A stretch of DNA of 64,000 nt from contig OX638319.1 of NCBI GenBank assembly GCA_951812655.1, positions 248,001-312,000 on the forward strand. The letters are read 5' to 3'. The translations under genes and the position numbers were made by a program. The notes below the pieces were generated by a model that had not been told where the DNA came from, did not search any database, and saw nothing but the letters and a program-made list of their open reading frames with translations. This DNA is from an uncultured Candidatus Nitrosopumilus sp. GTDB lineage: Archaea > Thermoproteota > Nitrososphaeria > Nitrososphaerales > Nitrosopumilaceae. This document shows, in pieces, positions 11,016-62,575 of the stretch. Numbering within the stretch: position 1 is the first letter of the stretch; every line of letters begins with the position of its first letter.

Positions 11016-11126
11016 TCTGGATTTATTCTAATTCAGATTCTTTTAAGTCTTTCTTAAATCAATTCAATGTACGATCTACGTCTATCAATAGAAAATAAAA
11101 TAAAAAAATGTGCTGATGCACTTTTT

Positions 11127-11690: not shown

Positions 11691-11711
11691 GCTCTAATCA
11701 TGTGATTTCAT

Positions 11712-11719
11712 GATATAAA
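11712..11719 (-). promoter_or_regulatory. TATA box of amoC
   Basis: Minus-strand TTTATATC lies 22-29 bp before the amoC ATG at 11690, which implies a leaderless or nearly leaderless amoC transcript. It is the promoter-proximal end of the divergent amoC/amoB control region (11691-11941). The rest of that region is very AT-rich, with a more GC-rich block at about 11850-11895. Confidence 0.6.
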
Positions 11720-11900
11720 GCAATAGTTTTGAATATGGAGAATTTCTTTAAAAAAATAGAAGAAAAAAATACAAGTTTATAAAATAATTTTAATTTAAAA
11801 ACTTTAAAATGTAATAATTATATCATTTTTTTATAGATTTGATTGTATAACAATGACGATTAGCATCTAGCAAGGATCGATTCTCGCCATGAAGGTAAAA

Positions 11901-11908
11901 CATATAAC
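11901..11908 (+). promoter_or_regulatory. Probable TATA box of amoB
   Basis: catataac on the plus strand lies about 37 bp upstream of the amoB ATG (11942), which would leave a leader of about 10-15 bases. It is the best A-box candidate in the amoB half of the divergent region, but the match is modest. Confidence 0.4.
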
Positions 11909-11941
11909 GATGAATCTTAATTCCAAATCTTAGGGATAACT

Positions 11942-28484: not shown

Positions 28485-29447
28485 CTAGTCTAAAGAGTAT
28501 GCAGTACTCATTATTTTTTCAAGTTCCACAGTATTTTTTGAAAGAGTGATCTTTGAGCGTAATTTTGAGCCGCCCTTCATACCCTTTGTAAATCTCATTG
28601 CCTGACCTTTGATATTTGCAAATTTTATTTTGTACGCATTGGTAAGATGCAAATAATCAAAAAACGAATCCAGCCTGTCTTTGAAAGAATATTCTTTGTA
28701 AGAATTAGTCTTAAGAAAATCATTTATCTGTTCAAACAGAAATGGATTTCCCATTGCACCACGGCCAATCATCACATAGTCACAGCCTGTTTCATCAAAC
28801 ATGGTTTTGGCATCCTCTGGAGTAACAATATCACCATTTCCAACTATCGGAATATTGGAAATTTCTTTGAGTTCCTTGATCATTTTCCAATCTGCATGGC
28901 CGGAATATCCCTGACTAACAGTTCGGGGATGAAATGTAATCATTTGAATTCCTTCATCTTCTGCAATTTCTGCAATTTCACGAAACAAAAATTTACTTGT
29001 ATCAGTTACCCCAGAACGAATTTTCAAGGTAACAGGCTTTTTTACAGCGTTTACAAGAGTGCTAAATATCTGTTGAGTCAAATTGGCCTCTTGTAGTAAG
29101 GCACCCCCTGCCATTTGTTGAGTAATATGTGGGGCTGGACAACCCATGTTATAATCAATGATATCAAAAAAAGGTTCCACGATTTTGGCAGCCTTTTCTA
29201 ATGCATTTAAATCAGAACCAAATAATTGAATGGATAAAGGACGTTCTTGATCAGAATATTCGATGAATTCTCGTATTGTCTGCATTTTTTCTTTGAACTG
29301 CTTTTCTTTTGCGATAATGCTATGAATGCTAGTGAATTCGGTCACCACCAATCCAGCCCCCATTTTTTTACACTGCAATCTAAGAGCAGGATCACTGACA
29401 CCCGCCATCGGAGCCAAAAATGCAGGACTGGAAAATTTTGGAAGCAT
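28485..29447 (-). CDS. dus: tRNA-dihydrouridine synthase
   Basis: 320 residues. FMN-dependent TIM-barrel enzyme that reduces uridine to dihydrouridine in tRNA D-loops. Visible motifs are the N-terminal FLAPMAGVSDPALRLQCK, NMGCPAPHITQQMAGGALLQ with the conserved catalytic-cysteine region, FHPRTVSQGYSG, GNGDIVTPEDA and the FMN-phosphate loop GRGAMGNPFLF. Start ATG at 29447. It lies tail-to-tail neither with nor against its partner genes and is transcribed in the same direction as the TSP3 array upstream, 58 bp away. Confidence 0.93.
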   Translation of the reverse strand: MLPKFSSPAFLAPMAGVSDPALRLQCKKMGAGLVVTEFTSIHSIIAKEKQFKEKMQTIREFIEYSDQERPLSIQLFGSDLNALEKAAKIVEPFFDIIDYNMGCPAPHITQQMAGGALLQEANLTQQIFSTLVNAVKKPVTLKIRSGVTDTSKFLFREIAEIAEDEGIQMITFHPRTVSQGYSGHADWKMIKELKEISNIPIVGNGDIVTPEDAKTMFDETGCDYVMIGRGAMGNPFLFEQINDFLKTNSYKEYSFKDRLDSFFDYLHLTNAYKIKFANIKGQAMRFTKGMKGGSKLRSKITLSKNTVELEKIMSTAYSLD

Positions 29448-29504: not shown

Positions 29505-32500
29505 CTACTGAGAAGAGTTAGTGTCTGGGCAGCCGTCATAGTCTCTGTCACCGTCATAATCCTCGGGTTCCAGCGGACATGAATCATCGTCATTGATGAT
29601 TCCGTCTAGATCATCATCATGGACAAATCTCTGTTGTTCAGGAGCTATGTCTGGGCAGCCGTCACTGTCATTGTATTTGTTCCAGGTCTCAGGTAGCGTA
29701 GGACATGAATCTAGAGAGTCAGGATAGCCATCAGCATCTAGATCAGGCCTTGTTGGTATCGTTGACTCTGCAGCCAATACATCTGGGCAGCCGTCCCAGT
29801 CCAGGTAATCGTTAAAGTTCTCCGGCTCGTCAACGCATGCATCTTTCCTGTCATCTATCCCATCGCCGTCGGTGTCAGGGAAAATGTAGGATGGAACAAC
29901 AGAGTCAGTCGTATCTGGGCAGCCGTCACTGTCGAGGTAGTTGTTGTATGTCTCAGGATCTATCGGACATGCGTCCATTCCGTCTGGAATTCCGTCCTGA
30001 TCAGAGTCCAATCCGGACACATACTTGTCTGGGCAGCCGTCTGCATCCTGGAACCCGTTGAACGTCTCGGGCTGGTTCGGACATGAGTCCAGATAGTCTG
30101 GAATTCTGTCGCCGTCGGTGTCAGGTGTGAGCTTGTTATCAAGAATCAAGTCTGGGCAGCCGTCATCATCCTGGAATTGGTTGTATGTTTCACGGGCAGA
30201 AGGACATTGATCTACATCATCAAGAACTCCATCAAAGTCTGAGTCTCCAGATGAAGCATGATCTAACGAATCGGGACAGCCGTCTTCGTCCTGAAATTGG
30301 TTGTATCTTTCAGCAATTGTAGGACATAAATCAAATACATCTGGGATTGCATCGTGATCTACATCAGATAGTGCAGAATTAGAAAATCCTGGAATGTCTG
30401 GGCAGCCGTCCCAGTCCAGGTAATCGTTAAAGTTCTCCGGCTCGTCAACGCATGCGTCCCACCTGTCCTCTATTCCGTCGCCGTCGGTGTCAGGGAAAAT
30501 GTAGGATGGAACAACAGAGTCAGTCGTATCTGGGCAGCCGTCACTGTCGAGGTAGTTGTTGTATGTCTCAGGATCTATCGGACATGCGTCCATTCCGTCT
30601 GGGATTCCGTCCTGATCAGAGTCCAATCCGGACACATACTTGTCTGGGCAGCCGTCTGCATCCTGGAACCCGTTGAACGTCTCGGGCTGGTTCGGACATG
30701 AGTCCAGATTGTCAACAATTCGATCGCCGTCAGAATCATAAGTAATTGACCCGTCTGGGATTAAATCAGGGCAGCCGTCTTTGTCGAGGTATTGATTATA
30801 GGTTTCTTTGGCATAAGGACACATATCAAATCGATCTGAAATTCCGTCGCCGTCAGAATCACCTGTGATCAAAAGTTCAGTTTCATCTGGGCAGCCGTCA
30901 TCATCCTGGAACTTGTTAAAGTTCTCACGTTCCAAAGGACAATCATCAACATGATCTAGAATACTATCATAATCAGAATCAATCAAACCTTCTGAAGACA
31001 CACCTGGAATGTCAGGGCAGCCGTCCCAGTCCAGGTAATCGTTAAAGTTCTCCGGCTCGTCAACGCATGCGTCCCACCTGTCCTCTATTCCGTCGCCGTC
31101 GGTGTCAGGGAAAGTGTACTGTGAACCGACATCGTCAACGCTGTCAGGGCAGCCGTCAGTATCCAAATAATTGTTGTATGTCTCAGGATCCATCGGACAT
31201 GCGTCCATTCCGTCTGGAATTCCGTCCTGATCAGAGTCCAATCCGGACACATACTTGTCTGGGCAGCCGTCTGCATCCTGGAACCCGTTGAACGTCTCGG
31301 GCTGGTTCGGACATGAGTCCAGATAGTCTGGAATTCTGTCGCCGTCGGTGTCAGGTGTGAGCTTGTTATCAAGAATCAAGTCTGGGCAGCCGTCTTCGTC
31401 GAGGTAGTTGTTGTATGTCTCCGGCTGGTTTGGACAGGAATCATCATTATCCATGATACCGTCACTATCAGTATCACCATTTACATTAAAATACAGAATG
31501 TCAGGGCAGCCGTTGTCATCCTGAAAATTGTTGTAGTTTTCACGTTCCAACGGACAAGCATCCATGTCATCTGGAATGCCGTCATAGTCAGTATCTGAAT
31601 CTTGGAAAGAAGACGTTCCCGGAATGTCAGGGCAGCCGTCATAGTCCAGGTAATCGTTAAAGTTCTCCGGCTCGTCAACGCATGCGTCCCACCTGTCCTC
31701 TATTCCGTCGCCGTCGGTGTCAGGGAAAGTGTACTGTGAACCGACATCGTCAACGCTGTCAGGGCAGCCGTCAGCGTCGAGGTATCGGTTGTATGTCTCA
31801 GGATCTATCGGACATGCGTCCATTCCGTCTGGGATTCCGTCCTGATCAGAGTCTAGAACGTATGAAAAGTCATCGGGACATCCGTCGGCGTCGTCAATTC
31901 CGTTGAATGTCTCCGGCTGGTTCGGACAAAGATCCAGATTGTCTGGAATTCCGTCGCCGTCGGTGTCAAATGTCATCTTGTTGTCTGCCACATAGTCGGG
32001 ACATCCGTCGGCATCCTGGAACTTGTTGTATGTCTCAAGACTAAATGGACACAGGTCATCATTATCAGCAATTCCGTCGCCGTCGGCATCTCCGGTTACG
32101 TCAAAGTGCAATACGTCAGGGCAGCCGTCGGTATCCTGGAACTTGTTGTAGTTTTCACGTTCCAACGGACAAGCATCCATGTCATCTGGAATGCCGTCAT
32201 AGTCAGCATCCAATATGTCACCGGCAGTAGTGCCCGGAATGTCAGGGCAGCCGTCATAGTCCAGGTAATCGTTAAAGTTCTCCGGCTCGTCAACGCATGC
32301 GTCCCACCTGTCCTCTATTCCGTCGCCGTCGGTGTCAGGGAAAGTGTACTGTGAACCGACATCGTCAACGCTGTCAGGGCAGCCGTCAGCGTCGAGGTAT
32401 CGGTTGTATGTCTCAGGATCCATCGGACATGCGTCCATTCCGTCTGAGATTCCGTCCTGATCAGAGTCTAGAACGTATGAAAAGTCATCGGGACATCCGT

Positions 32501-32918
32501 CGGCGTCGTCAATTCCGTTGAATGTCTCCGGCTGGTTCGGACACGAGTCCATAAAGTCAGGATAGCCGTCGCCGTCGGTGTCAGCAATGCCTTTTGCATC
32601 ATCAGGAGAATTGTCTGGACACCCGTCAGCGTCGAGGTATCGGTTGTATGTTTCCTTGACTGTAGGACACATGTCTACGTGATCCTCTATTCCGTCATAA
32701 TCAGCGTCATACCATGGAACGAAATCAGCAGGGCAGCCGTCTATGTTGTTGCCATATTCAGGGTCATAGTCCTCCAACAGGTGAGGGCATTGATCCATGT
32801 CATTTGGAACGCCGTCACCGTCGGTGTCATTCACCTCAACGGCAAAAGCGCCACTTGGCATCATTCCAATCGTGGACGTAAGTAAAAGCAAAAATCCCAG
32901 GAGGTATTGTTTTTTCAT
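29505..32918 (-). CDS. Secreted thrombospondin type-3 repeat protein, fourth (last) of a tandem array
   Basis: 1,137 residues. Signal peptide (YLLGFLLLLTSTIGMMPSGAFA) and then almost only calcium-binding TSP3-type repeats, each DxDxDGxxDxxDxCP with a trailing NxFxDxDGCPD. The protein is strongly acidic and has no C-terminal membrane anchor. In eukaryotic thrombospondins each DxDxDG loop binds Ca2+ and pairs of Cys form disulfides. Residues 1 to about 335 equal those of the 34680-36851 protein, and the C-terminus is of the same type, so the two are sisters. The start follows the previous stop by 12 bp, with AGGAG overlapping that stop as ribosome binding site. Confidence 0.9.
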   Translation of the reverse strand: MKKQYLLGFLLLLTSTIGMMPSGAFAVEVNDTDGDGVPNDMDQCPHLLEDYDPEYGNNIDGCPADFVPWYDADYDGIEDHVDMCPTVKETYNRYLDADGCPDNSPDDAKGIADTDGDGYPDFMDSCPNQPETFNGIDDADGCPDDFSYVLDSDQDGISDGMDACPMDPETYNRYLDADGCPDSVDDVGSQYTFPDTDGDGIEDRWDACVDEPENFNDYLDYDGCPDIPGTTAGDILDADYDGIPDDMDACPLERENYNKFQDTDGCPDVLHFDVTGDADGDGIADNDDLCPFSLETYNKFQDADGCPDYVADNKMTFDTDGDGIPDNLDLCPNQPETFNGIDDADGCPDDFSYVLDSDQDGIPDGMDACPIDPETYNRYLDADGCPDSVDDVGSQYTFPDTDGDGIEDRWDACVDEPENFNDYLDYDGCPDIPGTSSFQDSDTDYDGIPDDMDACPLERENYNNFQDDNGCPDILYFNVNGDTDSDGIMDNDDSCPNQPETYNNYLDEDGCPDLILDNKLTPDTDGDRIPDYLDSCPNQPETFNGFQDADGCPDKYVSGLDSDQDGIPDGMDACPMDPETYNNYLDTDGCPDSVDDVGSQYTFPDTDGDGIEDRWDACVDEPENFNDYLDWDGCPDIPGVSSEGLIDSDYDSILDHVDDCPLERENFNKFQDDDGCPDETELLITGDSDGDGISDRFDMCPYAKETYNQYLDKDGCPDLIPDGSITYDSDGDRIVDNLDSCPNQPETFNGFQDADGCPDKYVSGLDSDQDGIPDGMDACPIDPETYNNYLDSDGCPDTTDSVVPSYIFPDTDGDGIEDRWDACVDEPENFNDYLDWDGCPDIPGFSNSALSDVDHDAIPDVFDLCPTIAERYNQFQDEDGCPDSLDHASSGDSDFDGVLDDVDQCPSARETYNQFQDDDGCPDLILDNKLTPDTDGDRIPDYLDSCPNQPETFNGFQDADGCPDKYVSGLDSDQDGIPDGMDACPIDPETYNNYLDSDGCPDTTDSVVPSYIFPDTDGDGIDDRKDACVDEPENFNDYLDWDGCPDVLAAESTIPTRPDLDADGYPDSLDSCPTLPETWNKYNDSDGCPDIAPEQQRFVHDDDLDGIINDDDSCPLEPEDYDGDRDYDGCPDTNSSQ

Positions 32919-32930
32919 TTTCAGATACTC

Positions 32931-34667
32931 CTACAGGTCAGGACATCCGTCAGCGTCTCTGTCACCGTCATAATCCTCGGGTTCCAGCGGACACAAGTCG
33001 TCTTCATTGATGATGTTATCTAAATCAACGTCATGTTTGTATCTTGACTGTTCTGGCGAAATGTCGGGGCAGCCGTCATAGTCGTTGTACTTGTTCCAAG
33101 ATTCTTTTTCATTTGGACAAGAGTCAGCATCATCAGGTATGCCGTCATTGTCGGTGTCAATTATGACATTTCCAAGTGGCAAGACGTCAGGGCAGCCGTC
33201 ATAGTCAACGTACTTGTTCCAGACCTCGTTTTGTTCAGGACACATGTCCATTACGTCTGGTACGCCGTCGCCGTCGGTGTCAACCTGTATCATGTCATTG
33301 TCAGGGCAGCCGTCAGTATCCTGGAAACCGTTGTAGTTCTCAGCAACCAGTGGGCAATCATCAGAGGCATCTGGGATGCCGTCATTGTCAGAATCTACTA
33401 CGGATGACTCAGAAATCGTGTCAGGGCAGCCGTCAGTATCCTGGAACTTGTTGTATGTTTCCTTTGCAGTCGGACATGCGTCTATTGCATCTGGAATTCC
33501 ATCTTGATCTCTATCATTAGTTGAAATATAATCGTCAGGGCAGCCGTCAGTATCCAAAATACCGTTGAACGTCTCCGGCTGGTTCGGACAATGGTCATTG
33601 TAGTCATTTATGCCATCGCCGTCGGTGTCAAATGTCATTTTGTTGTCTGCCACATAGTCAGGGCAGCCGTCAGTATCCTGGAACTTGTTGTATGTTTCCT
33701 TTGCAGTTGGACACTGGTCTAAATCATCATAGATTCCATCACCGTCAGAATCGCCAAGGGTTTGATAATCAATGCTGTCAGGGCAGCCGTCATCATCCTG
33801 GAATCTGTTGTAATTTTCTCTTTCCAGGGGACACTGGTCTACAGAATCGAATATGCCGTCATAGTCAGAATCAGACTGCATAGGATCATCAGGGCAGCCG
33901 TCATAGTCAACGTACTTGTTCCAGACCTCGTTTTGTTCAGGACACATGTCCATTACGTCTGGTACGCCGTCGCCGTCGGTGTCAACCTGTATCATGTCAT
34001 TGTCAGGGCAGCCGTCAGTATCCTGGAAACCGTTGTAGTTCTCAGCAACCAGTGGGCAATCATCAGAGGCATCTGGGATGCCGTCATTGTCAGAATCTAC
34101 TACGGATGACTCAGAAATCGTGTCAGGGCAGCCGTCAGTATCCTGGAATCTGTTGTATGTTTCTTTAGCAATAGGACACTCATCCAAGTAATCTAAAATT
34201 CCGTCTCGATCTCTGTCACCATGACCGTATGAATCAGGGCAGCCGTCAGTATCCTGGAAACCGTTGAACGTCTCCGGCTGGTTCGGACAGAGATCAACCA
34301 AGTCGATAAAGCCGTCGCCGTCGGTGTCAGCTGCACCGCCACTTCCGCTTCCAGATAGTGTGTCAGGGCAGCCGTCAGCGTCGAGGTATCGGTTGTATGT
34401 TTCCTTGACTGTAGGACACATGTCTACGTGATCCTCTATTCCGTCATAATCAGCGTCATACCATGGAACGAAATCAGCAGGGCAGCCGTCTATGTTGTTG
34501 CCATATTCAGGGTCATAGTCCTCCAACAGGTGAGGGCATTGATCCATGTCATTTGGAACGCCGTCACCGTCGGTGTCATTCACCTCAACGGCAAAAGCGC
34601 CACTTGGCATCATTCCAATCGTGGACGTAAGTAAAAGCAAAAATCCCAGGAGGTATTGTTTTTTCAT
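32931..34667 (-). CDS. Secreted thrombospondin type-3 repeat protein, third of the array
   Basis: 578 residues with the same signal peptide and first two repeats as the genes either side, but then segments otherwise found in the first gene of the array (a Gly/Ser linker LSGSGSGGAADTDGDGF, then SYGHGDRDRDG) and in the second gene (DYQTLGDSDGDGIYDD). The C-terminal 230 residues match the 36864-39299 protein. It is therefore a mosaic. About 20 Ca-binding repeats, no membrane anchor, acidic. Twelve bp separate it from both neighbours' coding ends. Confidence 0.9.
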   Translation of the reverse strand: MKKQYLLGFLLLLTSTIGMMPSGAFAVEVNDTDGDGVPNDMDQCPHLLEDYDPEYGNNIDGCPADFVPWYDADYDGIEDHVDMCPTVKETYNRYLDADGCPDTLSGSGSGGAADTDGDGFIDLVDLCPNQPETFNGFQDTDGCPDSYGHGDRDRDGILDYLDECPIAKETYNRFQDTDGCPDTISESSVVDSDNDGIPDASDDCPLVAENYNGFQDTDGCPDNDMIQVDTDGDGVPDVMDMCPEQNEVWNKYVDYDGCPDDPMQSDSDYDGIFDSVDQCPLERENYNRFQDDDGCPDSIDYQTLGDSDGDGIYDDLDQCPTAKETYNKFQDTDGCPDYVADNKMTFDTDGDGINDYNDHCPNQPETFNGILDTDGCPDDYISTNDRDQDGIPDAIDACPTAKETYNKFQDTDGCPDTISESSVVDSDNDGIPDASDDCPLVAENYNGFQDTDGCPDNDMIQVDTDGDGVPDVMDMCPEQNEVWNKYVDYDGCPDVLPLGNVIIDTDNDGIPDDADSCPNEKESWNKYNDYDGCPDISPEQSRYKHDVDLDNIINEDDLCPLEPEDYDGDRDADGCPDL

Positions 34668-34679
34668 TTTCAGATACTC

Positions 34680-36851
34680 CTACAGGTCAGGACATCCGTC
34701 AGCGTCTCTGTCACCGTCATAATCCTCGGGTTCCAGCGGACATGAATCATCGTCATTGATGATTCCGTCTAGATCATCATCATGGACAAATCTCTGTTGT
34801 TCAGGAGCTATATCTGGGCAGCCGTCACTGTCATTGTATTTGTTCCAGGTCTCAGGTAGCGTAGGACATGAATCTAGAGAGTCAGGATAGCCATCAGCAT
34901 CTAGATCGCCAGAATTAGGGGTTGTCGACTCTGCAGCCAATACATCTGGGCAGCCGTCCCAGTCCAGGTAATCGTTAAAGTTCTCCGGCTCGTCAACGCA
35001 TGCGTCCCACCTGTCCTCTATTCCGTCGCCGTCGGTGTCAGGGAAAGTGTACTGTGAACCGACATCGTCAACGCTGTCAGGGCAGCCGTCTGCATCTAAA
35101 AAGCGGTTATATGTTTCTGGATCTAGTGGACATGCATCAAACATATCCAAGATACCATCATTGTCAGAATCTAACCCAAAAGCATACTTATCTGGGCAGC
35201 CGTCTGCGTCGTCAATTCCGTTGAACGTCTCGGGCTGGTTCGGACATGAGTCCAGATAGTCTGGAATTCCATCCTGATCAGTATCAGCAGTAAGCTTGTT
35301 GTCTGCCACATAGTCAGGGCAGCCGTCAGTATCCTGGAACTTGTTGTATGTTTCCTTTGCAGTTGGACACTGGTCTAAATCATCATAGATTCCATCACCG
35401 TCAGAATCGCCAAGGGTTTGATAATCAATGCTGTCAGGGCAGCCGTCATCATCCTGAAAACCGTTGTATCTTTCAGCCAAATTTGGACAAGCATCCAAAT
35501 GATCTGCCAAACCGTCATAGTCAGCATCCAATATGTCACCGGCAGTAGTGCCCGGAATGTCAGGGCAGCCGTCATAGTCCAGGTAATCGTTAAAGTTCTC
35601 CGGCTCGTCAACGCATGCGTCCCACCTGTCCTCTATTCCGTCGCCGTCGGTGTCAGGGAAAGTGTACTGTGAACCGACATCGTCAACGCTGTCAGGGCAG
35701 CCGTCAGTATCCAAATAATTGTTGTATGTCTCAGGATCCATCGGACATGCGTCCATTCCGTCTGAGATTCCGTCCTGATCAGAGTCTAGAACGTATGAAA
35801 AGTCATCGGGACATCCGTCATCATCCTGTAAACCGTTGAATGTCTCCGGCTGGTTCGGACAAAGATCCAGATTGTCTGGAATTCCGTCGCCGTCGGTGTC
35901 AAATGTCATCTTGTTGTCTGCCACATAGTCGGGACATCCGTCGGCATCCTGGAACTTGTTGTATGTCTCAAGACTAAATGGACACAGGTCATCATTATCA
36001 GCAATTCCGTCGCCGTCGGCATCTCCGGTTACGTCAAAGTGCAATACGTCAGGGCAGCCGTCGGTATCCTGGAACTTGTTGTAGTTTTCACGTTCCAACG
36101 GACAAGCATCCATGTCATCTGGAATGCCGTCATAGTCAGCATCCAATATGTCACCGGCAGTAGTGCCCGGAATGTCAGGGCAGCCGTCATAGTCCAGGTA
36201 ATCGTTAAAGTTCTCCGGCTCGTCAACGCATGCGTCCCACCTGTCCTCTATTCCGTCGCCGTCGGTGTCAGGGAAAGTGTACTGTGAACCGACATCGTCA
36301 ACGCTGTCAGGGCAGCCGTCAGCGTCGAGGTATCGGTTGTATGTCTCAGGATCCATCGGACATGCGTCCATTCCGTCTGAGATTCCGTCCTGATCAGAGT
36401 CTAGAACGTATGAAAAGTCATCGGGACATCCGTCGGCGTCGTCAATTCCGTTGAATGTCTCCGGCTGGTTCGGACACGAGTCCATAAAGTCAGGATAGCC
36501 GTCGCCGTCGGTGTCAGCAATGCCTTTTGCATCATCAGGAGAATTGTCTGGACACCCGTCAGCGTCGAGGTATCGGTTGTATGTTTCCTTGACTGTAGGA
36601 CACATGTCTACGTGATCCTCTATTCCGTCATAATCAGCGTCATACCATGGAACGAAATCAGCAGGGCAGCCGTCTATGTTGTTGCCATATTCAGGGTCAT
36701 AGTCCTCCAACAGGTGAGGGCATTGATCCATGTCATTTGGAACGCCGTCACCGTCGGTGTCATTCACCTCAACGGCAAAAGCGCCACTTGGCATCATTCC
36801 AATCGTGGACGTAAGTAAAAGCAAAAATCCCAGGAGGTATTGTTTTTTCAT
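34680..36851 (-). CDS. Secreted thrombospondin type-3 repeat protein, second of the array
   Basis: 723 residues. Signal peptide and TSP3 repeats as in 29505-32918, of which it looks like a shorter sister lacking several internal repeat blocks. The common supra-repeat reads ...SQYTFPDTDGDGIEDRWDAC, then VDEPENFNDYLDYDGCPDIP. The last 75 residues match those of the 29505-32918 protein except for a few changes (ending DADGCPDL here, DYDGCPDTNSSQ there). Probably secreted and Ca2+-dependent in fold. Confidence 0.9.
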   Translation of the reverse strand: MKKQYLLGFLLLLTSTIGMMPSGAFAVEVNDTDGDGVPNDMDQCPHLLEDYDPEYGNNIDGCPADFVPWYDADYDGIEDHVDMCPTVKETYNRYLDADGCPDNSPDDAKGIADTDGDGYPDFMDSCPNQPETFNGIDDADGCPDDFSYVLDSDQDGISDGMDACPMDPETYNRYLDADGCPDSVDDVGSQYTFPDTDGDGIEDRWDACVDEPENFNDYLDYDGCPDIPGTTAGDILDADYDGIPDDMDACPLERENYNKFQDTDGCPDVLHFDVTGDADGDGIADNDDLCPFSLETYNKFQDADGCPDYVADNKMTFDTDGDGIPDNLDLCPNQPETFNGLQDDDGCPDDFSYVLDSDQDGISDGMDACPMDPETYNNYLDTDGCPDSVDDVGSQYTFPDTDGDGIEDRWDACVDEPENFNDYLDYDGCPDIPGTTAGDILDADYDGLADHLDACPNLAERYNGFQDDDGCPDSIDYQTLGDSDGDGIYDDLDQCPTAKETYNKFQDTDGCPDYVADNKLTADTDQDGIPDYLDSCPNQPETFNGIDDADGCPDKYAFGLDSDNDGILDMFDACPLDPETYNRFLDADGCPDSVDDVGSQYTFPDTDGDGIEDRWDACVDEPENFNDYLDWDGCPDVLAAESTTPNSGDLDADGYPDSLDSCPTLPETWNKYNDSDGCPDIAPEQQRFVHDDDLDGIINDDDSCPLEPEDYDGDRDADGCPDL

Positions 36852-36863
36852 TTTCAGATACTC

Positions 36864-39299
36864 CTACAGGTCAGGACATCCGTCAGCGTCTCTGTCACCG
36901 TCATAATCCTCGGGTTCCAGCGGACACAAGTCGTCTTCATTGATGATGTTATCTAAATCAACGTCATGTTTGTATCTTGACTGTTCTGGCGAAATGTCGG
37001 GGCAGCCGTCATAGTCGTTGTACTTGTTCCAAGATTCTTTTTCATTTGGACAAGAGTCAGCATCATCAGGTATGCCGTCATTGTCGGTGTCAATTATGAC
37101 ATTTCCAAGTGGCAAGACGTCAGGGCAGCCGTCATAGTCAACGTACTTGTTCCAGACCTCGTTTTGTTCAGGACACATGTCCATTACGTCTGGTACGCCG
37201 TCGCCGTCGGTGTCAACCTGTATCATGTCATTGTCAGGGCAGCCGTCAGTATCCTGGAAACCGTTGTAGTTCTCAGCAACCAGTGGGCAATCATCAGAGG
37301 CATCTGGGATGCCGTCATTGTCAGAATCTACTACGGATGACTCAGAAATCGTGTCAGGGCAGCCGTCAGTATCCTGGAACTTGTTGTATGTTTCCTTTGC
37401 AGTCGGACATGCGTCTATTGCATCTGGAATTCCATCTTGATCTCTATCATTAGTTGAAATATAATCGTCAGGGCAGCCGTCAGTATCCAAAATACCGTTG
37501 AACGTCTCCGGCTGGTTCGGACAATGGTCATTGTAGTCATTTATGCCATCGCCGTCGGTGTCAGGAATCCCTTTATCGTTAATTACATTGTCAGGGCAGC
37601 CGTCAGTATCCTGGAACTTGTTGTATGTTTCAGGCACTAATGGACACTCATCCAAACTGTCAACTATTCCATCAAAGTCAGAATCGACTGAAGTGATGTA
37701 ATCAGGATAATCAGGGCAGCCGTCAGTATCCTGATAGCCGTTATATCTTTCAGGTACTAGTGGACACTGGTCTACAGAATCAAATATGCCGTCATAGTCA
37801 GAATCAGACTGCATAGGATCATCAGGGCAGCCGTCAGTATCCTGATAGTGGTTCCAAGTTTCTGCAGTAGAAGGACATTGATCTAACGTATCCCTAATTC
37901 CGTCACCGTCCGAATCCAATACTGAAATGTCTGGGCAGCCGTCAGTATCCTGATAGCCATTTACAGTTTCAGGATCTAGAGGACATCGATCATTAAGATC
38001 ATCAATGCCATCACCGTCAAAGTCAGATCCCAATAAACCGGATATGTTGTCGGGACATCCGTCAGCGTCCTGGAACTTGTTGTATGTTTCCTTTGCAGTT
38101 GGACACTGATCTAAATAATCTAAAATTCCATCCTGATCTCTATCACTAGTGGAATCAAGGTCAGGGCAGCCGTCAGTATCCTGGAAACCGTTGAATGTCT
38201 CGGGCTGGTTCGGACAGAGATCTGAAAAGTCATTAACACCATCACCGTCGGTGTCAGGAACTCCCTTATCAGAACCTACAAAGTCAGGGCAACCGTCAGT
38301 ATCCTGGAACTTGTTAAAAGTTTCTTTTACCATAGGACATTGATCTACACTATTTGGAATGCCATCAAGATCTGAATCGTTATCAGTAGAATAAGGAGGA
38401 ATGTCAGGGCAGCCGTCAGTATCCTGATAGCCGTTATATCTTTCAGGTTCTAGTGGGCAAGCATCATCAACATCCATAATTCTATCACCGTCTGCATCAT
38501 CCAATGTTCCACCAAACGACAGAATGGAGTCAGGGCAGCCGTCATAATCAGTAAACCTATTGAAGGTTTCGGGGTGATCAGGACAGATATCAAACTCATC
38601 AGCTATTCCATCATTGTCTCTATCATCAAAAGATAAATCCAATGTGGCATCAGGGCAGCCGTCAGTATCCTGATAGCCGTTATAAATTTCAGGTTCAGTT
38701 ATGCATTGATCAATTTTATCTTGAATTCCATCATTATCAGTATCAATAAAATCTAGATCATTTATAGAATCAGGGCAGCCGTCAGCGTCAAGGTATCTGT
38801 TGTAGGTCTCAGAATTCAGGGGACACTCATCCAGATAATCTAAAACACCGTCACGATCTCTGTCACCATGACCGTATGAATCAGGGCAGCCGTCAGTATC
38901 CAAAATACCGTTGAACGTCTCCGGCTGGTTCGGACAGAGATCAACCAAGTCGATAAAGCCGTCGCCGTCGGTGTCAGCTGCACCGCCACTTCCGCTTCCA
39001 GATAGTGTGTCAGGGCAGCCGTCAGTATCCTGGAACTTGTTGTATGTTTCCTTCACACTCGGACAGAGATCTATGTGATCCTCTATTCCGTCATAGTCTT
39101 CGTCATACCATGGAACAAAATTCGAGGGACAACCGTCTATTGCACCGTCATAATCCTCATGTAGATTTGGACATGAGTCAAGAGAATCAGAAACTCCGTC
39201 ATTATCTAAGTCATCAAGTGCAAAAGCAGGATTAATTGGAACACTAGTTAAGGTTGTTACAAGTAACAGTAGAAACGGTAATGAATGTATTTTTTTCAA
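36864..39299 (-). CDS. Secreted thrombospondin type-3 repeat protein, first of the array
   Basis: 811 residues from a TTG. It has its own, different signal peptide (SLPFLLLLVTTLTSVPINPAFA) and more diverse repeats than the three genes after it, so it is probably the oldest member. All repeats keep the DxDxDGxxDxxDxCP calcium loop and the paired cysteines. Its C-terminal 230 residues are the source or twin of those in 32931-34667. The promoter must lie in the 138-bp gap shared with taw1; TTTAATAAC at about 39327-39335 is a candidate A-box. Confidence 0.9.
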   Translation of the reverse strand: MKKIHSLPFLLLLVTTLTSVPINPAFALDDLDNDGVSDSLDSCPNLHEDYDGAIDGCPSNFVPWYDEDYDGIEDHIDLCPSVKETYNKFQDTDGCPDTLSGSGSGGAADTDGDGFIDLVDLCPNQPETFNGILDTDGCPDSYGHGDRDRDGVLDYLDECPLNSETYNRYLDADGCPDSINDLDFIDTDNDGIQDKIDQCITEPEIYNGYQDTDGCPDATLDLSFDDRDNDGIADEFDICPDHPETFNRFTDYDGCPDSILSFGGTLDDADGDRIMDVDDACPLEPERYNGYQDTDGCPDIPPYSTDNDSDLDGIPNSVDQCPMVKETFNKFQDTDGCPDFVGSDKGVPDTDGDGVNDFSDLCPNQPETFNGFQDTDGCPDLDSTSDRDQDGILDYLDQCPTAKETYNKFQDADGCPDNISGLLGSDFDGDGIDDLNDRCPLDPETVNGYQDTDGCPDISVLDSDGDGIRDTLDQCPSTAETWNHYQDTDGCPDDPMQSDSDYDGIFDSVDQCPLVPERYNGYQDTDGCPDYPDYITSVDSDFDGIVDSLDECPLVPETYNKFQDTDGCPDNVINDKGIPDTDGDGINDYNDHCPNQPETFNGILDTDGCPDDYISTNDRDQDGIPDAIDACPTAKETYNKFQDTDGCPDTISESSVVDSDNDGIPDASDDCPLVAENYNGFQDTDGCPDNDMIQVDTDGDGVPDVMDMCPEQNEVWNKYVDYDGCPDVLPLGNVIIDTDNDGIPDDADSCPNEKESWNKYNDYDGCPDISPEQSRYKHDVDLDNIINEDDLCPLEPEDYDGDRDADGCPDL

Positions 39300-39437
39300 C
39301 GCCTAGAATTATCTTGAGGATCCAGTTATTAAACCTCACTCTAGAATCAGCTATAAACATCAGGAGTTTAGAGAAAAGTTTCCATGTCAGATGAAAATCA
39401 CGATCAATTTAAGTAAAGTGAAACACGATCTCAATTC

Positions 39438-40466
39438 ATGAGTTGCTCTGGTGAAACAGTTGAAGAAGAAGAGCAATTGATTCAGATAAGACCGGCGATC
39501 ACAGCCCAATTAAAAAAAGCAAAGTACGGAGTGGCGGATCATTCAACTGTAGGACTTTGTCACTGGACAAAAAAATCATTCAAACATGAAGGGAGCTGCT
39601 ACAAGCACAAATTTTATGGCATTTCCACTCACAGATGTATGGAATTTTCGCCAGCTGGAATGTATTGTGAGAACAGATGCGTGTATTGCTGGAGACCCAT
39701 GGAATTTTATGATTCAATGAATATGGATTTAGAGCAAGTTGCAGAACCTGTGGATATTTTGACAAAATTGATGGCAGAAAGAAAAAAACTGATCAACGGG
39801 TTTTATGGAGATTCTAGAAACGACAAACAAAGATTGGATGAATCATTGTTGCCCAGTCATTATGCAATCTCACTATCGGGAGAGCCCACAATGTATCCAA
39901 AATTACCAGAACTGATCAAATATCTAAACTCATTGAAACAGACAAAGTCAATTTTTCTTGTAACAAATGGACAAGAGCCAGACATGATTCAAAAATTACA
40001 AGATGAAGATGCACTGCCAACACAATTGTACCTATCAACAAATGCTGCAGACTACGAGTCATTTATGAAGATAAACAAACCAAGATATGACGATTCGTGG
40101 GAAAGATGGAACAGAACGCTTGGAATGCTAAAAGATTTGGATACGAGAACAGTTCTAAGAATTACTTTGATTAGAAACTACAATGATCAGAAAGAATCGA
40201 TTCCAGCATTTGCAGAAATGTTTAGAAAAGCGAGTCCGCACTTTATCGAAATAAAGTCATACATGCATATTGGACGCTCGACAAATAGATTGGAACATGA
40301 AAACATGTTAGAGATGGACGAAATAAAAAAATTTAGCTCAGAGATTGCAAGACAAAGTAAAATATTTTCCATAATGGATGAAAGTTTAGTTTCAAGAATT
40401 TCAGTCTTACAGAATAACGACCGAATGATTGATCGTTTTATTCCTACTTATGCAAATACCAATTAG
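39438..40466 (+). CDS. taw1: 4-demethylwyosine synthase (Taw1/TYW1)
   Basis: 342 residues. Radical SAM enzyme that builds the tricyclic imidazopurine of wyosine on G37 of tRNA-Phe from pyruvate. The SAM iron-sulfur motif is CENRCVYC (CxxxCxxC), and upstream cysteines in GLCHWTKKSFKHEGSCYKHK and STHRCMEFSP belong to the second cluster of this family. YAISLSGEPTMYPKLPELI is the conserved radical SAM strand. It starts the plus-strand unit opposite the TSP3 array. Confidence 0.93.
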   Translation: MSCSGETVEEEEQLIQIRPAITAQLKKAKYGVADHSTVGLCHWTKKSFKHEGSCYKHKFYGISTHRCMEFSPAGMYCENRCVYCWRPMEFYDSMNMDLEQVAEPVDILTKLMAERKKLINGFYGDSRNDKQRLDESLLPSHYAISLSGEPTMYPKLPELIKYLNSLKQTKSIFLVTNGQEPDMIQKLQDEDALPTQLYLSTNAADYESFMKINKPRYDDSWERWNRTLGMLKDLDTRTVLRITLIRNYNDQKESIPAFAEMFRKASPHFIEIKSYMHIGRSTNRLEHENMLEMDEIKKFSSEIARQSKIFSIMDESLVSRISVLQNNDRMIDRFIPTYANTN

Positions 40467-50306: not shown

Positions 50307-51797
50307 TCACTCTTTTTGCTCAGACTTGTCCTCATATTTTGCACTTAGTTCTGCAATTTTTTCAGACTCATCATATTCATCAGACTCGACAAGTTTTGGT
50401 CTTTCGTCAGCTACAGGAACAGGTGCGGGCGGTGGAGCGTTCTTTTGCTGTGCCATGGCATAACGATAGACATGGAAGAATGCTGCAAACACAAGCAAGA
50501 TGATTCCAATAAAGAACAATGAGATATTCTTCATTCCGGTTAAAGCCGCATTATATGCCGCAATGTTCAGGAATACCTGGAATGCTAATAGTGCAATCAA
50601 TAACCAGTTAATCCACTTCTCAGATAGATTTACAGTAGCAACTTTTTGAGGACCGTTGGTTTTTGCAAGCTTTGATTTTCTTTCAGCCTCATTTGCTAGC
50701 TTGATCATCATATAGGTAAATCCGAAACCCAATGGGACCAACAATATCATTGTAGAATAGAAGAATATTGGATCAATTACCAAACGTTCTACCAATGGAA
50801 TGGAGATATCTGGTGAGATATAGAATCCCCAGTAAGTAGTGACCATGATTTGAGCAAGACTGGTAATACCAAATGCCGTAATGATCGGTCTATCCCTCCA
50901 AGAGAATTTCTTATATCTGTCGATGAACGGAATTAGCACGAACGATATAATGAACAGCAATGGCCAAAGCAAGCCAGTAACAAACTTGTCATACTGCGTC
51001 CTCATGAACGCATAGATTCCAGTGAGATACCACTCAGGAACTGTCACGCCAGGCGGCACAGTGGGCTCAAACTTGAACCCCATGTCAATTGGGAAAACCC
51101 CACCCGTAATCAAAATAGCACCACCGATTGCCATAACCATAGGTACATCAAATACCAAGAATCTTGGGAAGTGTACAGCCATGAGTCCAAGCATAACGAT
51201 TGGCAACAAGAATACATGTTGGGCGTAAAACCTCAAAACAAAGTCAGAGAACCCACTGCCTAACGCAGCATCACGAATAGTCGGTCCCACTACAGGTATA
51301 GACGTGGTCAACGAAGCAGCAATACTAATTGCCAATTCTGCCCTTTCACTGAAAATTACATCATATCCTGTAAAGGCCTCAAGAATAGTAACAGTACCTA
51401 AGATAACTCCAGTCATCCATAATACTTCATTTCTGATTTTGTATCTTCCACTGAAATATTGATAGTATAAGTGTAGAACTGCTAATAGAACCATGGCATT
51501 CGAGCCATGATAGTGAATATTTCTAATATGAAAACCAAATGGTACCTCATCGTTGATAAACTGAACACTGTCCCATGCTCTGTCCAAAATAGGCTGATAG
51601 TAAAACATGAGCAAAGCACCCGAAACACCAAGAATTATGAATACAATGAATGTGAGCATTCCCAAAAAGCCAAACGGACTGACAAACCTTGCAGGAAATG
51701 AGAATTTGATTGCAGTAAAAATAGTTCTGTCTACACCATCCCACAGCCAGTAAAGAAGTGCTACGACTCCTGTCCTTCTCTCAAGCGAAACGGCCAT
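50307..51797 (-). CDS. petB: Cytochrome b (complex III / cytochrome bc-type) with C-terminal extension
   Basis: About 496 residues from the ATG at 51797, the start that gives MAVSLERRTGVVALLYWLWD; the longer frame is an artefact within the Rieske gene. Heme-ligand histidines lie in RNIHYHGSNAMVLLAVLHLY and in the AQHVFLLPIVMLGLMAVHFP helix. The Qo-site PEWY motif is in VPEWYLTGIYAFMR. After the b/subunit-IV part there are two more membrane spans and an acidic, Pro-rich cytoplasmic tail (PPPAPVPVADERPK). It overlaps the Rieske gene by 17 bp. Confidence 0.92.
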   Translation of the reverse strand: MAVSLERRTGVVALLYWLWDGVDRTIFTAIKFSFPARFVSPFGFLGMLTFIVFIILGVSGALLMFYYQPILDRAWDSVQFINDEVPFGFHIRNIHYHGSNAMVLLAVLHLYYQYFSGRYKIRNEVLWMTGVILGTVTILEAFTGYDVIFSERAELAISIAASLTTSIPVVGPTIRDAALGSGFSDFVLRFYAQHVFLLPIVMLGLMAVHFPRFLVFDVPMVMAIGGAILITGGVFPIDMGFKFEPTVPPGVTVPEWYLTGIYAFMRTQYDKFVTGLLWPLLFIISFVLIPFIDRYKKFSWRDRPIITAFGITSLAQIMVTTYWGFYISPDISIPLVERLVIDPIFFYSTMILLVPLGFGFTYMMIKLANEAERKSKLAKTNGPQKVATVNLSEKWINWLLIALLAFQVFLNIAAYNAALTGMKNISLFFIGIILLVFAAFFHVYRYAMAQQKNAPPPAPVPVADERPKLVESDEYDESEKIAELSAKYEDKSEQKE

Positions 51798-57364: not shown

Positions 57365-60300
57365 TTATTGTACAGTTATTGTTGTGCTAACTGGAGGCGA
57401 TAATGCCGTTGGATTATCTACTGACTCCCATACAAATGCAGTTGCTGTGTAAGTTCCTGCTTCTGTTGGAATCCATGATAATGCTGGGCTGAATGATTGA
57501 CCTTCAGATAATGAACCTGTAATCCATGCTAGTGATACTGTTACGCCATTGCCATCCTGGATCTGTACCAAGTATGCAAATGATTGCTCTCTATCCTGAC
57601 CGTTTGCTAAGTCAGCACTGATTTGTACCTGTTGGTCAACAGAGACAGCATCTAAGCTGTTTCCGAATGCATCAACGGTTCTCAAGCTAGCAGCTGGTGC
57701 TCTCTCGAGAGGTGGTACTACGGTGCCAATTAGTGTAGTGGCAGTAATATCAAGTTCATCGGCAGTTGTGTACGGATCTGGTAGTGTATTGTCCTCATAT
57801 TCTGCAGTGACAGTGTCACCTTCTGCGACTCTGAGTCTGTGACCAGATGACTCGTCAGCGACTGTGAAGAACACAGTGCCCTCGAATATTCCGGTTGCCT
57901 CATTAGTCTCAGTTACAGTAAGGTCAATACCTCCGGCATCGGAGTCAGACCACACATCGACATCGAAGTTGTCGACTGATTCTGGGTTTAAGTTCATGTC
58001 TGGATCAATAATTCTTACTACGCCTGTTCCGCTAGCTGGATAACTTGCTTCTAACCATTGTACTTCACCGATATTCCATCTGATAAGTGCTGAACCGACT
58101 ACTGTTTCATCCTCTGAGAATTCAAAGGAGACTGTAAGTCCGTCATCGTCATCAGTTTGTAGGAATCCGTCTGTTGGTCCTGAATTATCAGCTGAGTTAG
58201 TTGGATTTGTATCAAATCCGTTCGCATCACCTGTGTCAGCATCACCATCAGCATCGTGTCCAAATCCAGTGAGTATGATCTCACCAGTGAAGATGCCTGT
58301 GTCAGTACCTGTTTCGACTAGCTTGTACTCATTGATGTCATGACCTCTTGTAGAGATCTTGATTGGATCAAGTGAACTACCACCGACCTCATCAATTAAG
58401 TCGCCATCGAAGTTGTGATCAGGTGCGACTACGGTTATGTATACTTTATCAGTCCAAGAGTAGACTTTTTGGTCAAGTTCTACAGTTGCTCCAAAGTTTG
58501 ATGTAAAGACAGTTACGTTGATATCCTCATCTTCTTGACCAACGAAGTCACTACCTGATGGTCCCCAATCAGTATATTCTAAGACAATTTCCTCTCCTCT
58601 TTCAAGGCGGTCACCGTCTAGTTCTTCAGGGATTTCAATGACAATCTGGAAGATTCCAGTGGAGTCACCTGTCTCTCTAAAGTCTGTTGGTTCTGGATCA
58701 AATGATAGTCCGTTGTTGCTTGCTGCACCACCAAGGTTACCCATGGATAGTGTTGCTGCATCAGAGTCCCACTCGATAACATCGAGGTCATAGGTCTCTG
58801 CTGCATCATTGTCAAGGTCCCAATCGGGTTCAATAATAGTGAGTATCATGTCGCCACCAATGATATAGACAGATTTGTCTGATTGCAAGACACCGTTTCT
58901 GAGATCAAATGTTGCTGAGTCAGTTACAGTGTTTGGATCACCTGCTGCATCGGTTGGATCAGTGTACTCTACGGTGATAATATCACCTTGTAAAATACAG
59001 TAGTTCTCACCAGTTGCGGACTGTGAAGAAAATCTGCTTAATTCACTTGTGTTTGCGACAGTGGTATCAAGAGCATTGAAGACTGCGGTATCAGGACATA
59101 CTGATGAAGCTGGTCCATCTGTGTATCTGATAGTAAAGTCAAGTTCAAAGATTCCGGCATCAGGTGCGATCTCATCGATTGCACCAAGAAGTCGGATTTC
59201 TCTATCATCGTCGGTTGCATCCCCATCTATTTCAGGAATACCTGCGACGCCACCGTTGTCTGCATCATCATTAGCAGAATCAAATACAAATCCGAGTGGT
59301 CCGTTTGCGACGGTTTCAACGACTTTGCCGCTGTCACCAACATCGATTACACCAGTCTGCTCTGTGGAACCTCCAGCATATGCTAGAACTACCTCGTCAG
59401 AACCTCTGGATACTGTAATCTTTACAGGACCTCTTGGGTCAGTAGATGAATTGTCTAATGCTATTACGTCAGAACCTGCAGCTGAGATGTCAAAGTCTGG
59501 ATCGTTGACTCTGATATGAACAGTCAAGTCTCCGTTTGGTAATGTCTCAACGACTTGATTAGCATTGCTATCAAGGTTATCTAGATTACCATCAACTCCA
59601 GTTACGTGAACTGGGAATAGTGATGCTCCAGATGGGGTGTTAGTGTTGAGTGCACCGCCAAAGTCAGCAAGGGAACCCCATGGTACTGGATAGACAGTTC
59701 TGTCTAGGCTGATAGAACCAGTGTTGGCTCTGATGCCTGCTGAATCACCTACTTCGATGATTTCACCAGATGCATCTCTAAAGTCTAGATAGTTTACTTC
59801 AATATCAGTACCTGTGGTGCTTGCTTTTGCACCTGCTGCGTTAGATCTGTCACAATAGTTATCTGGAATTTGGAAGTCTCCTGTGAATTTACCTGAATCA
59901 GTACCTGTTTCTATAAGAGTGAATCCTGTAGAACCAAATCCGTCATTGAATGAATTAAAGGCTGTAGCACATAATGAACCATCAATGGTTACACCCTGTG
60001 CGGCCCATATTTGATCATCAAAGGTAATGTTTAGCAATGAGCCTAGTGGACCAAATGATTGGGTTCCTAGACCTGCGACACCAACAGTTTCTACTGCTGG
60101 TTCGACTGCATTGTTAGCACCACCAACGATGGTATAGATTTCGATTAAATCGCTATCTACATTCAAGTCGGCATCTTCAAGTGTAATTGCAACTGTATCT
60201 GCAACTTTGTATGTATCAAGATCAAATGAAACGATTCCGGAATGTGAAGGAGCCTCTTCTTGGTCACCGACTGGTGTAGTTACACCGTCTGCTCCCAAGT

Positions 60301-62575
60301 CATTGTAATCTACTCTTAGAGAGTCTTCATCAGTAAAGTCCTCGATGACGATTAATCCTGGATCATCGCCAACTGTGCTAAGATCAGAATATGTATCTGC
60401 ATCAAGAATGTTTAGCTGATTAAGCATTACGTATTCGAGTGAACCTACGAATTCTCCTGTGTTATCGCCGCTTTCTTCTAGCTCCATTCTGACAATCATA
60501 TTGTCAACTCTTTCGCTAGCTAAAACGCCGTCATTGAAGAATCCGAATCCGAAGAAGTCAGCTACCATTGGAGTTACAGCATTAGCTGGATATACATCAG
60601 CACCACCGCTAATGTCCAAATTAAAGCTAACAATCAATGCATCTGCAGCTTCGAATGATGCTGCGTTAGCATTGGTTGCGATATTTGGACCGACGAGTGC
60701 GTCAGTAAGCAAGACTGTACCTTGAAGATCAAGGTTCTGCCATGCAGCTGGTGAAACTCCATTGATAGTAAGATCTACAGAGTCCAGTCCTTCAAGGTTA
60801 CCATCATCTGCAAGAGATCTGATATCATAATTGAATGATCCAAATCCTTGGAAATTGACGGCACCATCAAATGGTGCTGGACCATGTAGGTTATCTCCTA
60901 CGGTTCCATATGTAATTACAAAGTCATCGCCATCTACTACAGGAATATCAATTGCAAATGACAGATCGTTGGCTGCCATCAACCTATCACTAAATGCCTG
61001 AACTTTGTCAGCGATCACTAGTGGTAAGGCTGTAGGTCCTACTTGATCAACAAGCGATACATCTGTTGCAGCGGCCAATGTGGTTGGTGAACCAATTCTT
61101 ACAGATGGAATCAATGGGATATTAGGATTGTTTAGATCCAAGTCCTCATCAAATCTACTGTTCAAGTTTAGGTCATCATCCAGCAAGACTACTGGAATCT
61201 CTTCACCAGAGCTCCATTCGTCATCGATTGGCTGAATATCAATAGATGCAAAGTCGTTTGATACGAGTACTGTGTATCCTGTATCATCATAATCTACAAT
61301 TGCGGAAGTACCTCTCTGTGCTGCGCTATTAATAGACAACACTGAGTCATCTTGCTCATCGTATGTTGCAAAGACTCCGCTGTTAGGGCCGAGTTCTGTA
61401 ACGGTTACGAATGTTGGTGTTGCAAATGCGCTAAACTGTGAGTCGCTGTTTCCATCGACTACCAATATATCGCCAGCTAGTGCGTTTTGTGCATCAACAT
61501 CAAGTATGAGAATTCCACCATCTTCAAAGAGAAGATCATCTAGAATTGGTACGATATCAGCAGAGATTGTTCCGTCAAAGGCACCAGCACCACATACAGC
61601 GGTAACTCCACCTGGAACGTTAGTATATCCTGCACATGCTCCAGCATTGTTTCCACTTTCATCGAACACTTGGTATCTAGTATCGGAACCATCAGTGGTA
61701 AATGTAATTGAATCCTCATCGGTAGGATCAAAATTCAACTCCATATCAGAGATGGTTACGTGTACTTGAGAACCAGGTGGGAATGAAGTGCGGTCAAATG
61801 CGGTATCAATGTATCCGTCTAGTGTATCAAAGGTTAGTGATGTTGTTTGAACATTGCTACCTTTGTTATACTGAACGATTACGTTACCTGTTGGATTGAA
61901 GTCATAGGCCTGAATGAATGGGAACATACCGACGTTTACGCCGATTTGACCATCTGGAGCAGGAGCTCCAGCTACTGCATCAGACAGATCTTTTGCTTCT
62001 CTAACTACGTTATTGAAGAGATCTGCGCCGACTGCACCAGTACCTAGATCACATGTTGGTTCTGTGAATGGAACAACGTTACCTTCTATTCCGGTTACTG
62101 CAGTACCACCTGCGACTGTTCTTGGAATCCAGATACCTTGGGTATCAGTTACGGTGACTCCAGCAACAGTTGAGAGGTTATTACAGAATAGACCGAAATC
62201 GAGGCCTGCACCAGTATTAGTGGTAGCAGCCTGGTTACCATCAGCTACTATGGAAGTGTTCTTGTCTGTAATATATGCATACCACAAACCATCTACTCCC
62301 TGAGCCATACGGACAATTTTTCCGTTAACGGTAACATCAGGTTCTCCTTTCAATTCATCAGTTTCTTTGATATCAGAGTCATTGATTACAATTTCAATAA
62401 CTTGAGCACCACCAAAGTAGTTGTTATACAGTGAGTTTTCTGCGGAGACAAACAAGTTAGCGTTGGCTGCATGGGCTGCTGGCATCATAGATGGAGCAGC
62501 GATAACCATACCGCCTGCTAGCATTATTGTCATAAGTGTAAGACTAGTTATTTTACGTCCTATTTCGTTATTCAT
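57365..62575 (-). CDS. S-layer protein
   Basis: 1,736 residues with a signal peptide (LTLMTIMLAGGMVIAAPSM) and an acidic, beta-rich ectodomain. A motif recurs along the protein in the form ETGxxTGxFxG (for example ESGDNTGEFVGSL, ETGTDTGIFTGEI and TETNEATGIFEGTV), which marks repeated Ig-like domains. There is no C-terminal membrane anchor. Length, acidity and domain style agree with the dominant S-layer protein of Nitrosopumilus maritimus (about 1,730 residues). The S-layer coats the cell and, being acidic, may concentrate ammonium. The C-terminal domain (SWIPTEAGTYTATAFVWE) is shared with the protein at 4983-6047. Confidence 0.9.
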   Translation of the reverse strand: MNNEIGRKITSLTLMTIMLAGGMVIAAPSMMPAAHAANANLFVSAENSLYNNYFGGAQVIEIVINDSDIKETDELKGEPDVTVNGKIVRMAQGVDGLWYAYITDKNTSIVADGNQAATTNTGAGLDFGLFCNNLSTVAGVTVTDTQGIWIPRTVAGGTAVTGIEGNVVPFTEPTCDLGTGAVGADLFNNVVREAKDLSDAVAGAPAPDGQIGVNVGMFPFIQAYDFNPTGNVIVQYNKGSNVQTTSLTFDTLDGYIDTAFDRTSFPPGSQVHVTISDMELNFDPTDEDSITFTTDGSDTRYQVFDESGNNAGACAGYTNVPGGVTAVCGAGAFDGTISADIVPILDDLLFEDGGILILDVDAQNALAGDILVVDGNSDSQFSAFATPTFVTVTELGPNSGVFATYDEQDDSVLSINSAAQRGTSAIVDYDDTGYTVLVSNDFASIDIQPIDDEWSSGEEIPVVLLDDDLNLNSRFDEDLDLNNPNIPLIPSVRIGSPTTLAAATDVSLVDQVGPTALPLVIADKVQAFSDRLMAANDLSFAIDIPVVDGDDFVITYGTVGDNLHGPAPFDGAVNFQGFGSFNYDIRSLADDGNLEGLDSVDLTINGVSPAAWQNLDLQGTVLLTDALVGPNIATNANAASFEAADALIVSFNLDISGGADVYPANAVTPMVADFFGFGFFNDGVLASERVDNMIVRMELEESGDNTGEFVGSLEYVMLNQLNILDADTYSDLSTVGDDPGLIVIEDFTDEDSLRVDYNDLGADGVTTPVGDQEEAPSHSGIVSFDLDTYKVADTVAITLEDADLNVDSDLIEIYTIVGGANNAVEPAVETVGVAGLGTQSFGPLGSLLNITFDDQIWAAQGVTIDGSLCATAFNSFNDGFGSTGFTLIETGTDSGKFTGDFQIPDNYCDRSNAAGAKASTTGTDIEVNYLDFRDASGEIIEVGDSAGIRANTGSISLDRTVYPVPWGSLADFGGALNTNTPSGASLFPVHVTGVDGNLDNLDSNANQVVETLPNGDLTVHIRVNDPDFDISAAGSDVIALDNSSTDPRGPVKITVSRGSDEVVLAYAGGSTEQTGVIDVGDSGKVVETVANGPLGFVFDSANDDADNGGVAGIPEIDGDATDDDREIRLLGAIDEIAPDAGIFELDFTIRYTDGPASSVCPDTAVFNALDTTVANTSELSRFSSQSATGENYCILQGDIITVEYTDPTDAAGDPNTVTDSATFDLRNGVLQSDKSVYIIGGDMILTIIEPDWDLDNDAAETYDLDVIEWDSDAATLSMGNLGGAASNNGLSFDPEPTDFRETGDSTGIFQIVIEIPEELDGDRLERGEEIVLEYTDWGPSGSDFVGQEDEDINVTVFTSNFGATVELDQKVYSWTDKVYITVVAPDHNFDGDLIDEVGGSSLDPIKISTRGHDINEYKLVETGTDTGIFTGEIILTGFGHDADGDADTGDANGFDTNPTNSADNSGPTDGFLQTDDDDGLTVSFEFSEDETVVGSALIRWNIGEVQWLEASYPASGTGVVRIIDPDMNLNPESVDNFDVDVWSDSDAGGIDLTVTETNEATGIFEGTVFFTVADESSGHRLRVAEGDTVTAEYEDNTLPDPYTTADELDITATTLIGTVVPPLERAPAASLRTVDAFGNSLDAVSVDQQVQISADLANGQDREQSFAYLVQIQDGNGVTVSLAWITGSLSEGQSFSPALSWIPTEAGTYTATAFVWESVDNPTALSPPVSTTITVQ

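Follow-up and report, generated by a model that had tools for sequence, protein, structure and literature searches.

The characterised proteins nearest to those considered here are the TSP3 regions of OmpA, COMP and thrombospondin-2. In Nitrosopumilus, two TSP3-like proteins were found to be 15-40-fold more abundant in H2O2-exposed cells, S-layer proteins being also up, and that study suggests a remodelling of the extracellular matrix (PMC6593220). For a marine clade, PMC7265257 cites an extracellular structure that is thrombospondin-like. The structure of the N. maritimus S-layer led to its description as an acidic, negatively charged layer that binds and sieves cations and acts as an ammonium exchanger (PMC11153153). 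Ammonia-oxidising marine archaea of this kind are among the sea's most abundant nitrifiers and their envelope beyond the S-layer is little understood.

The stretch of DNA analysed here (64,000 nucleotides, hereafter the window) carries four minus-strand ORFs that fill positions 29505-39299 and are transcribed in the order A, B, C578, D (Table 1). The initial annotation had described them as four head-to-tail acidic TSP3-repeat proteins, each with a signal peptide. Both points are borne out. The four proteins match Pfam TSP_3 (PF02412) at 93-141 bits (119.9, 96.7, 93.1 and 140.7), well above the curated whole-protein cut-off of 25 bits, and all four are thus members of this family. Each starts with a signal peptide of Sec type whose cleavage site is AFA-like. 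Their pI is 4.05, aspartate and glutamate making up 27-29% of the residues, and their C-termini read DGCPDL or DTNSSQ. Besides TSP_3, the Pfam search of the four proteins returned only one match to DUF282, below cut-off, and a hydrophobicity scan revealed neither a second hydrophobic stretch beyond the signal peptide nor a membrane anchor in any of them. The genome is a single contig of 1,672,661 bases, in which all 27 TSP_3 matches (E 0.001 or better) lie inside the array.

Table 1. Features of the TSP3 array, its flanks and the S-layer gene (positions in the window)
Feature	Positions	Strand	Remarks
Gene A	36864..39299	-	811 aa, TTG start, 20 TSP3-type modules; orthologue of the conserved first gene
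Gene B	34680..36851	-	723 aa, 17 modules
Gene C578	32931..34667	-	578 aa, mosaic fourth gene, 14 modules
Gene D	29505..32918	-	1137 aa, 27 modules; C-type gene lengthened by two super-units of 205 aa
A-B spacer	36852..36863	-	12 bp, GAGTATCTGAAA
B-C578 spacer	34668..34679	-	12 bp, copy identical to GAGTATCTGAAA
C578-D spacer	32919..32930	-	12 bp, copy identical to GAGTATCTGAAA
Promoter-like element upstream of gene A	39326..39339	-	GTGAGGTTTAATAA, sole exact copy in the 1.67-Mb genome
C578 5' end, identical in B and D	34372..34667	-	296 nt
C578 3' end, identical to that of A	32931..33630	-	700 nt
Gene A 3' end, identical to that of C578	36864..37563		700 nt
Radical SAM / wyosine-forming protein (TYW1-like)	39438..40466	+	conserved flank
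Dihydrouridine synthase (Dus)	28485..29447	-	conserved flank
S-layer protein	57365..62575	-	1736 aa, orthologue of PDB 8c8k (S-layer protein of N. maritimus); lies about 18 kb away from the array; proposed partner surface

The window holds the S-layer gene and the ammonia monooxygenase genes together with the array. The latter genes occupy 9863-12511 (AmoA, 9863-10513, and AmoC, 11127-11690, on the minus strand; AmoB-like, 11942-12511, on the plus strand). The S-layer gene is adjoined by a minus-strand gene (52424-56242) whose 1272-aa product, of the subtilase family (Peptidase_S8) and with an N-terminal signal-like segment, is a possible envelope protease. At 50307-52386 (-), a 540-aa ORF is overlapped in another frame by one of 201 aa whose start is twin-arginine-like; these two ORFs are possibly one gene with a frameshift. 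In addition, an ORF at 2025-3215 (-) includes 12 perfect copies of a 27-bp tandem repeat (2616-2938) which, being all identical, are recent or strongly homogenised.

The array proteins share a modular grammar. Their modules, delimited by splitting at DGCP, are 36-44 aa long and each has one DxDxDG-type calcium loop and two cysteines (20, 17, 14 and 27 loops and 40, 34, 28 and 54 cysteines in A, B, C578 and D, respectively). They are grouped in super-units, assigned by eye, each opened by a CPNQPETFNG-like module, and the N-cap and C-cap module pairs are common to the array proteins. For example, gene A consists of 2+6+6+4+2 = 20 modules, with lengths of 58 38 / 43 37 40 40 42 40 / 41 37 40 36 37 40 / 41 38 40 38 / 41 42. 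The corresponding formulas are N-cap 2 + 5 + 5 + 3 + C-cap 2 = 17 for B, 2+6+4+2 = 14 for C578 and 2+5x4+3+2 = 27 for D. Module lengths are nearly invariant and almost free of indels between species and genera, the pattern of Ca2+ ligands and cysteines being conserved, and the lengths of B/C-type proteins move by whole super-units of about 205 aa (520, 723, 924-928, 1134-1137). AlphaFold2 models of A and D are poor (pLDDT 54 and 38.5, respectively).

The initial annotation had called for a comparison of the locus across Nitrosopumilus, and this comparison indicates that the array is no oddity of a single genome. TSP_3 matches are found in 78 of the 95 genomes of the genus, including 48 of the 56 good ones. 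The 17 genomes devoid of such a match are in many cases incomplete, but 8 are good genomes and the function of these proteins is therefore not indispensable. Matches also occur in 13 of the 22 sampled genera of the family and become sparse outside it, within the same class. Comparison of 20 regions from the genus, 37 named loci and 12 regions from other genera reveals that the usual locus is a trio, A (811-812 aa), B (721-724 aa) and C (722-724 aa), located between tyw1 and dus, as is the array of the window; the same trio is found in other genera with small length differences. Where the flanks could be read, this synteny holds with few exceptions, also in other genera and in the one-gene form. 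One species has a single gene at this site (L057) and another has two (L079). The orthologues of gene A are 68-86% identical (mean column identity 82%). Purifying selection is strong, with dN/dS values of about 0.06 (A) and 0.07 (B) in comparisons unaffected by saturation of synonymous sites. Some relatives encode additional TSP3 proteins, of about 500-980 aa, elsewhere in the genome (e.g., G007:C1:445386, L013; G001:C1:459020, L022); the window genome lacks these. Furthermore, in L098 and L082/L110 small additional TSP3 genes (333 and 339 aa) stand beside genes of 927-928 aa, as further duplication products of the same array.

The window differs from the usual trio by its four genes and by the lack of a second promoter-like element. 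In relatives, the starts of A and C share the promoter-like motif GTGAGnYTTAATAA; GTGAGGTTTAATAACTGGATC upstream of A is almost unchanged across the aligned species and CGTGAGACTTAATAAATACTTGATAAT is found in the B-C gap of 71-88 bp of most species. In 10 complete genomes, this motif has 14 exact matches, all at the TSP3 locus, with two in each of six genomes, versus two in total for the reversed-motif control, and in the window genome its one exact copy lies upstream of A. No further gene co-regulated through the exact element was found in these genomes. This distribution, with elements at A and C in relatives and only at A in the window, suggests that A and B are probably transcribed together and C separately in relatives, whereas the window species would probably make one four-gene mRNA. 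Gene A keeps its TTG start in relatives, except for one that has ATG. Its TAG stop codon and the following spacer form TAGGAG, so that the Shine-Dalgarno sequence of B overlaps the stop codon; TAGGAG or TAGGTG is found there in 33 of 39 loci. Readthrough of the stop codon into a polyprotein was considered, the 12-bp spacer being in frame after TAG here. It was rejected because the A-B gaps of relatives are of 9-15 bp in any frame and the conserved feature is the overlap of stop codon and Shine-Dalgarno sequence, not the reading frame.

Sequence identities within the array support the initial proposal of secreted Ca2+-repeat proteins made of interchangeable blocks. The first 1019 nt of D are identical in B, the 3' ends of A and C578 are identical over 700 nt, and the 5' ends of B, C578 and D over 296 nt; repeats within the array are far above chance. 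C578 joins a B/D-like 5' end to a body and 3' end of A type, with one insert of B type. Over their first 1299 nt, B and D have a dS of 0.028, compared with 1.1-1.5 between A or B and their counterparts in the sister species; this copying is therefore recent. The spacers are, as initially annotated, of exactly 12 bp, and all three are identical. However, they are not in themselves a design feature, since A-B spacers range from 9 to 15 bp in relatives and B-C spacers are usually of 71-88 bp and carry a promoter. In the window, recombination copied the short spacer over the others.

These comparisons indicate that the window locus is a derived, expanded form of the conserved three-gene operon. 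Through recent unequal recombination or gene conversion, all its junctions became copies of the A-B junction, the promoter of C was erased, C grew by two units (D) and the mosaic C578 arose. The loss of the B-C promoter gap is shared with the sister genome G036 (tree support 100/95). It is seen separately in L086, where the A-B spacer of that genome was copied in; short B-C gaps are also seen in L107, L111 and L116. In L107, from another genus, the last gene has 27 modules like D, suggesting that this size arose repeatedly. Other lineages show parallel expansions and promoter losses. Over their first 300 nt, B and C of the same genome are 92% identical, versus 81% between orthologues (20 genomes), an excess that fades in mid-gene (75% versus 74%), which points to concerted evolution of these 5' ends. 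The array probably evolves through unequal homologous recombination and gene conversion, acting on the near-identical 5' ends and on the super-units, processes that would preserve the module register and homogenise B and C within a genome, while occasionally adding units or genes or removing the internal promoter. A bolder reading, which we hold only tentatively and consider doubtful, is that of a register-locked modular system in which homologous exchange between adjacent genes alters protein length, in quanta of 205 aa, as well as the wiring of the operon, through loss of the second promoter, the envelope evolving by whole-block copying, possibly with adaptive surface variation.

As for function, we consider it fairly probable that this expanded Nitrosopumilaceae operon encodes secreted, Ca2+-loaded TSP3-repeat proteins forming a polyanionic layer or filler at the surface of the S-layer or inside it. 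The proteins would be exported by Sec, their modules would fold in the millimolar Ca2+ of seawater with one disulfide each, and the proteins would stay near the cell through Ca2+ bridges that link them to one another, to glycans or to the acidic S-layer. As a counterpoint, unanchored proteins could be lost to seawater. Association with an extracellular matrix or the S-layer is plausible and fits the proteomics of PMC6593220, and the array proteins are probably part of the outer coat of the cell. The TSP3-like proteins of that study are probably orthologues of the array genes, although this match is indirect, because its main text gives no locus tags and some relatives have TSP3 genes elsewhere. 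The operon is conserved and strongly constrained, encodes very acidic secreted proteins, of a kind for which a response to H2O2 is published, and has a promoter-like element of its own. These features make it a concrete candidate for a second envelope component, and the natural one-, two-, three- and four-gene forms, together with length variants in unit steps, offer ready-made comparisons.

Other explanations have to be weighed against this matrix. The proteins could be adhesins, protruding rods that mediate cell-cell or cell-particle aggregation, as proposed for myxobacterial TSP3 cohesion proteins. One of the latter, MtsC, is indeed their top NCBIfam match, and small aggregates are mentioned in the H2O2-exposed cultures where TSP3-like proteins rise (PMC6593220). 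However, the MtsC scores come from the repeats and fall short of the family cut-off, and neither a MYXO-CTERM, nor a membrane anchor, nor a separate binding domain is present, which makes this role unlikely. A role mainly as a polyanionic reservoir of Ca2+ or NH4+ at the surface, supporting the ammonium trap of the S-layer, would agree with the net charge of the array proteins (-133 to -283 each, before Ca2+ binding), with their aspartate content (22-24% versus 11.9% in the S-layer protein of the window) and with the exchanger described in N. maritimus (PMC11153153). It is nevertheless quite improbable: Ca2+ is expected to occupy the TSP3 carboxylates in seawater, the fixed module order and register point to shape rather than to charge alone, and some relatives lack TSP3 proteins.

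Recombination itself raises two further possibilities. The mosaic C578, the quantal lengths, the repeated expansion of the last gene in separate lineages and the concerted 5' ends could mean that the array exists to yield length or sequence variants of the surface, e.g., against viruses or grazers. We find this rather improbable, as gene A is nearly fixed in length and highly constrained, most relatives keep a plain trio, no recombinase, invertible element or silent cassette was seen, and recombination is expected between homologous repeats anyway. The fourth gene or the long D could also be a mis-joined repeat, given that the exact repeats of 700 and 1019 nt are longer than short reads and that the closest MAG contig (L065) ends inside gene B. 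Such an artefact is improbable, though conceivable for this genome taken alone: the genome was assembled as a single contig, the block order of C578 is unique among the array genes, B and D diverge outside their identical part, and 1134-aa, 927-aa and four-gene forms are seen in other genomes. Moreover, errors from short reads more often collapse repeats than create mosaics.

The envelope-matrix proteins proposed here are of a known kind; their locus anatomy and recombination history appear to be unreported in the open-access literature searched. Like MtsC (NF047638), they are secreted and made of tandem TSP3-type modules, but they score 163.7, 129, 99.3 and 206.6 bits against an equivalog cut-off of 350 and lack the MYXO-CTERM anchor, the hydrophobic C-terminal segment of this sorting signal being absent in all four. 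They are not members of the OmpA family, the OmpA domain being missing and TSP_3 alone exceeding its Pfam cut-off; TraB was likewise rejected on cut-offs and missing domains. The TSP3 regions of bacterial OmpA (PDB 5wtl) and of eukaryotic COMP/thrombospondin-2 (3fby, 1yo8) have the same paired-cysteine DxDxDG loops and detectable sequence similarity, whereas the array proteins consist of 14-27 modules alone, with a longer module of about 40 aa (ExxN...DxDGCPD) and fixed super-repeats, without OmpA, EGF or lectin-like domain. The Nitrosopumilus S-layer protein (8c8k) is also acidic, secreted, exposed at the surface and encoded in the same genomic neighbourhood, but belongs to a different family, with Ig-like domains and without TSP3 loops. 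Close counterparts are the TSP3-like proteins of PMC6593220, which come from the same genus and the extracellular fraction; that study deals with their abundance under H2O2, whereas locus structure, module grammar, promoters and recombination are described here.
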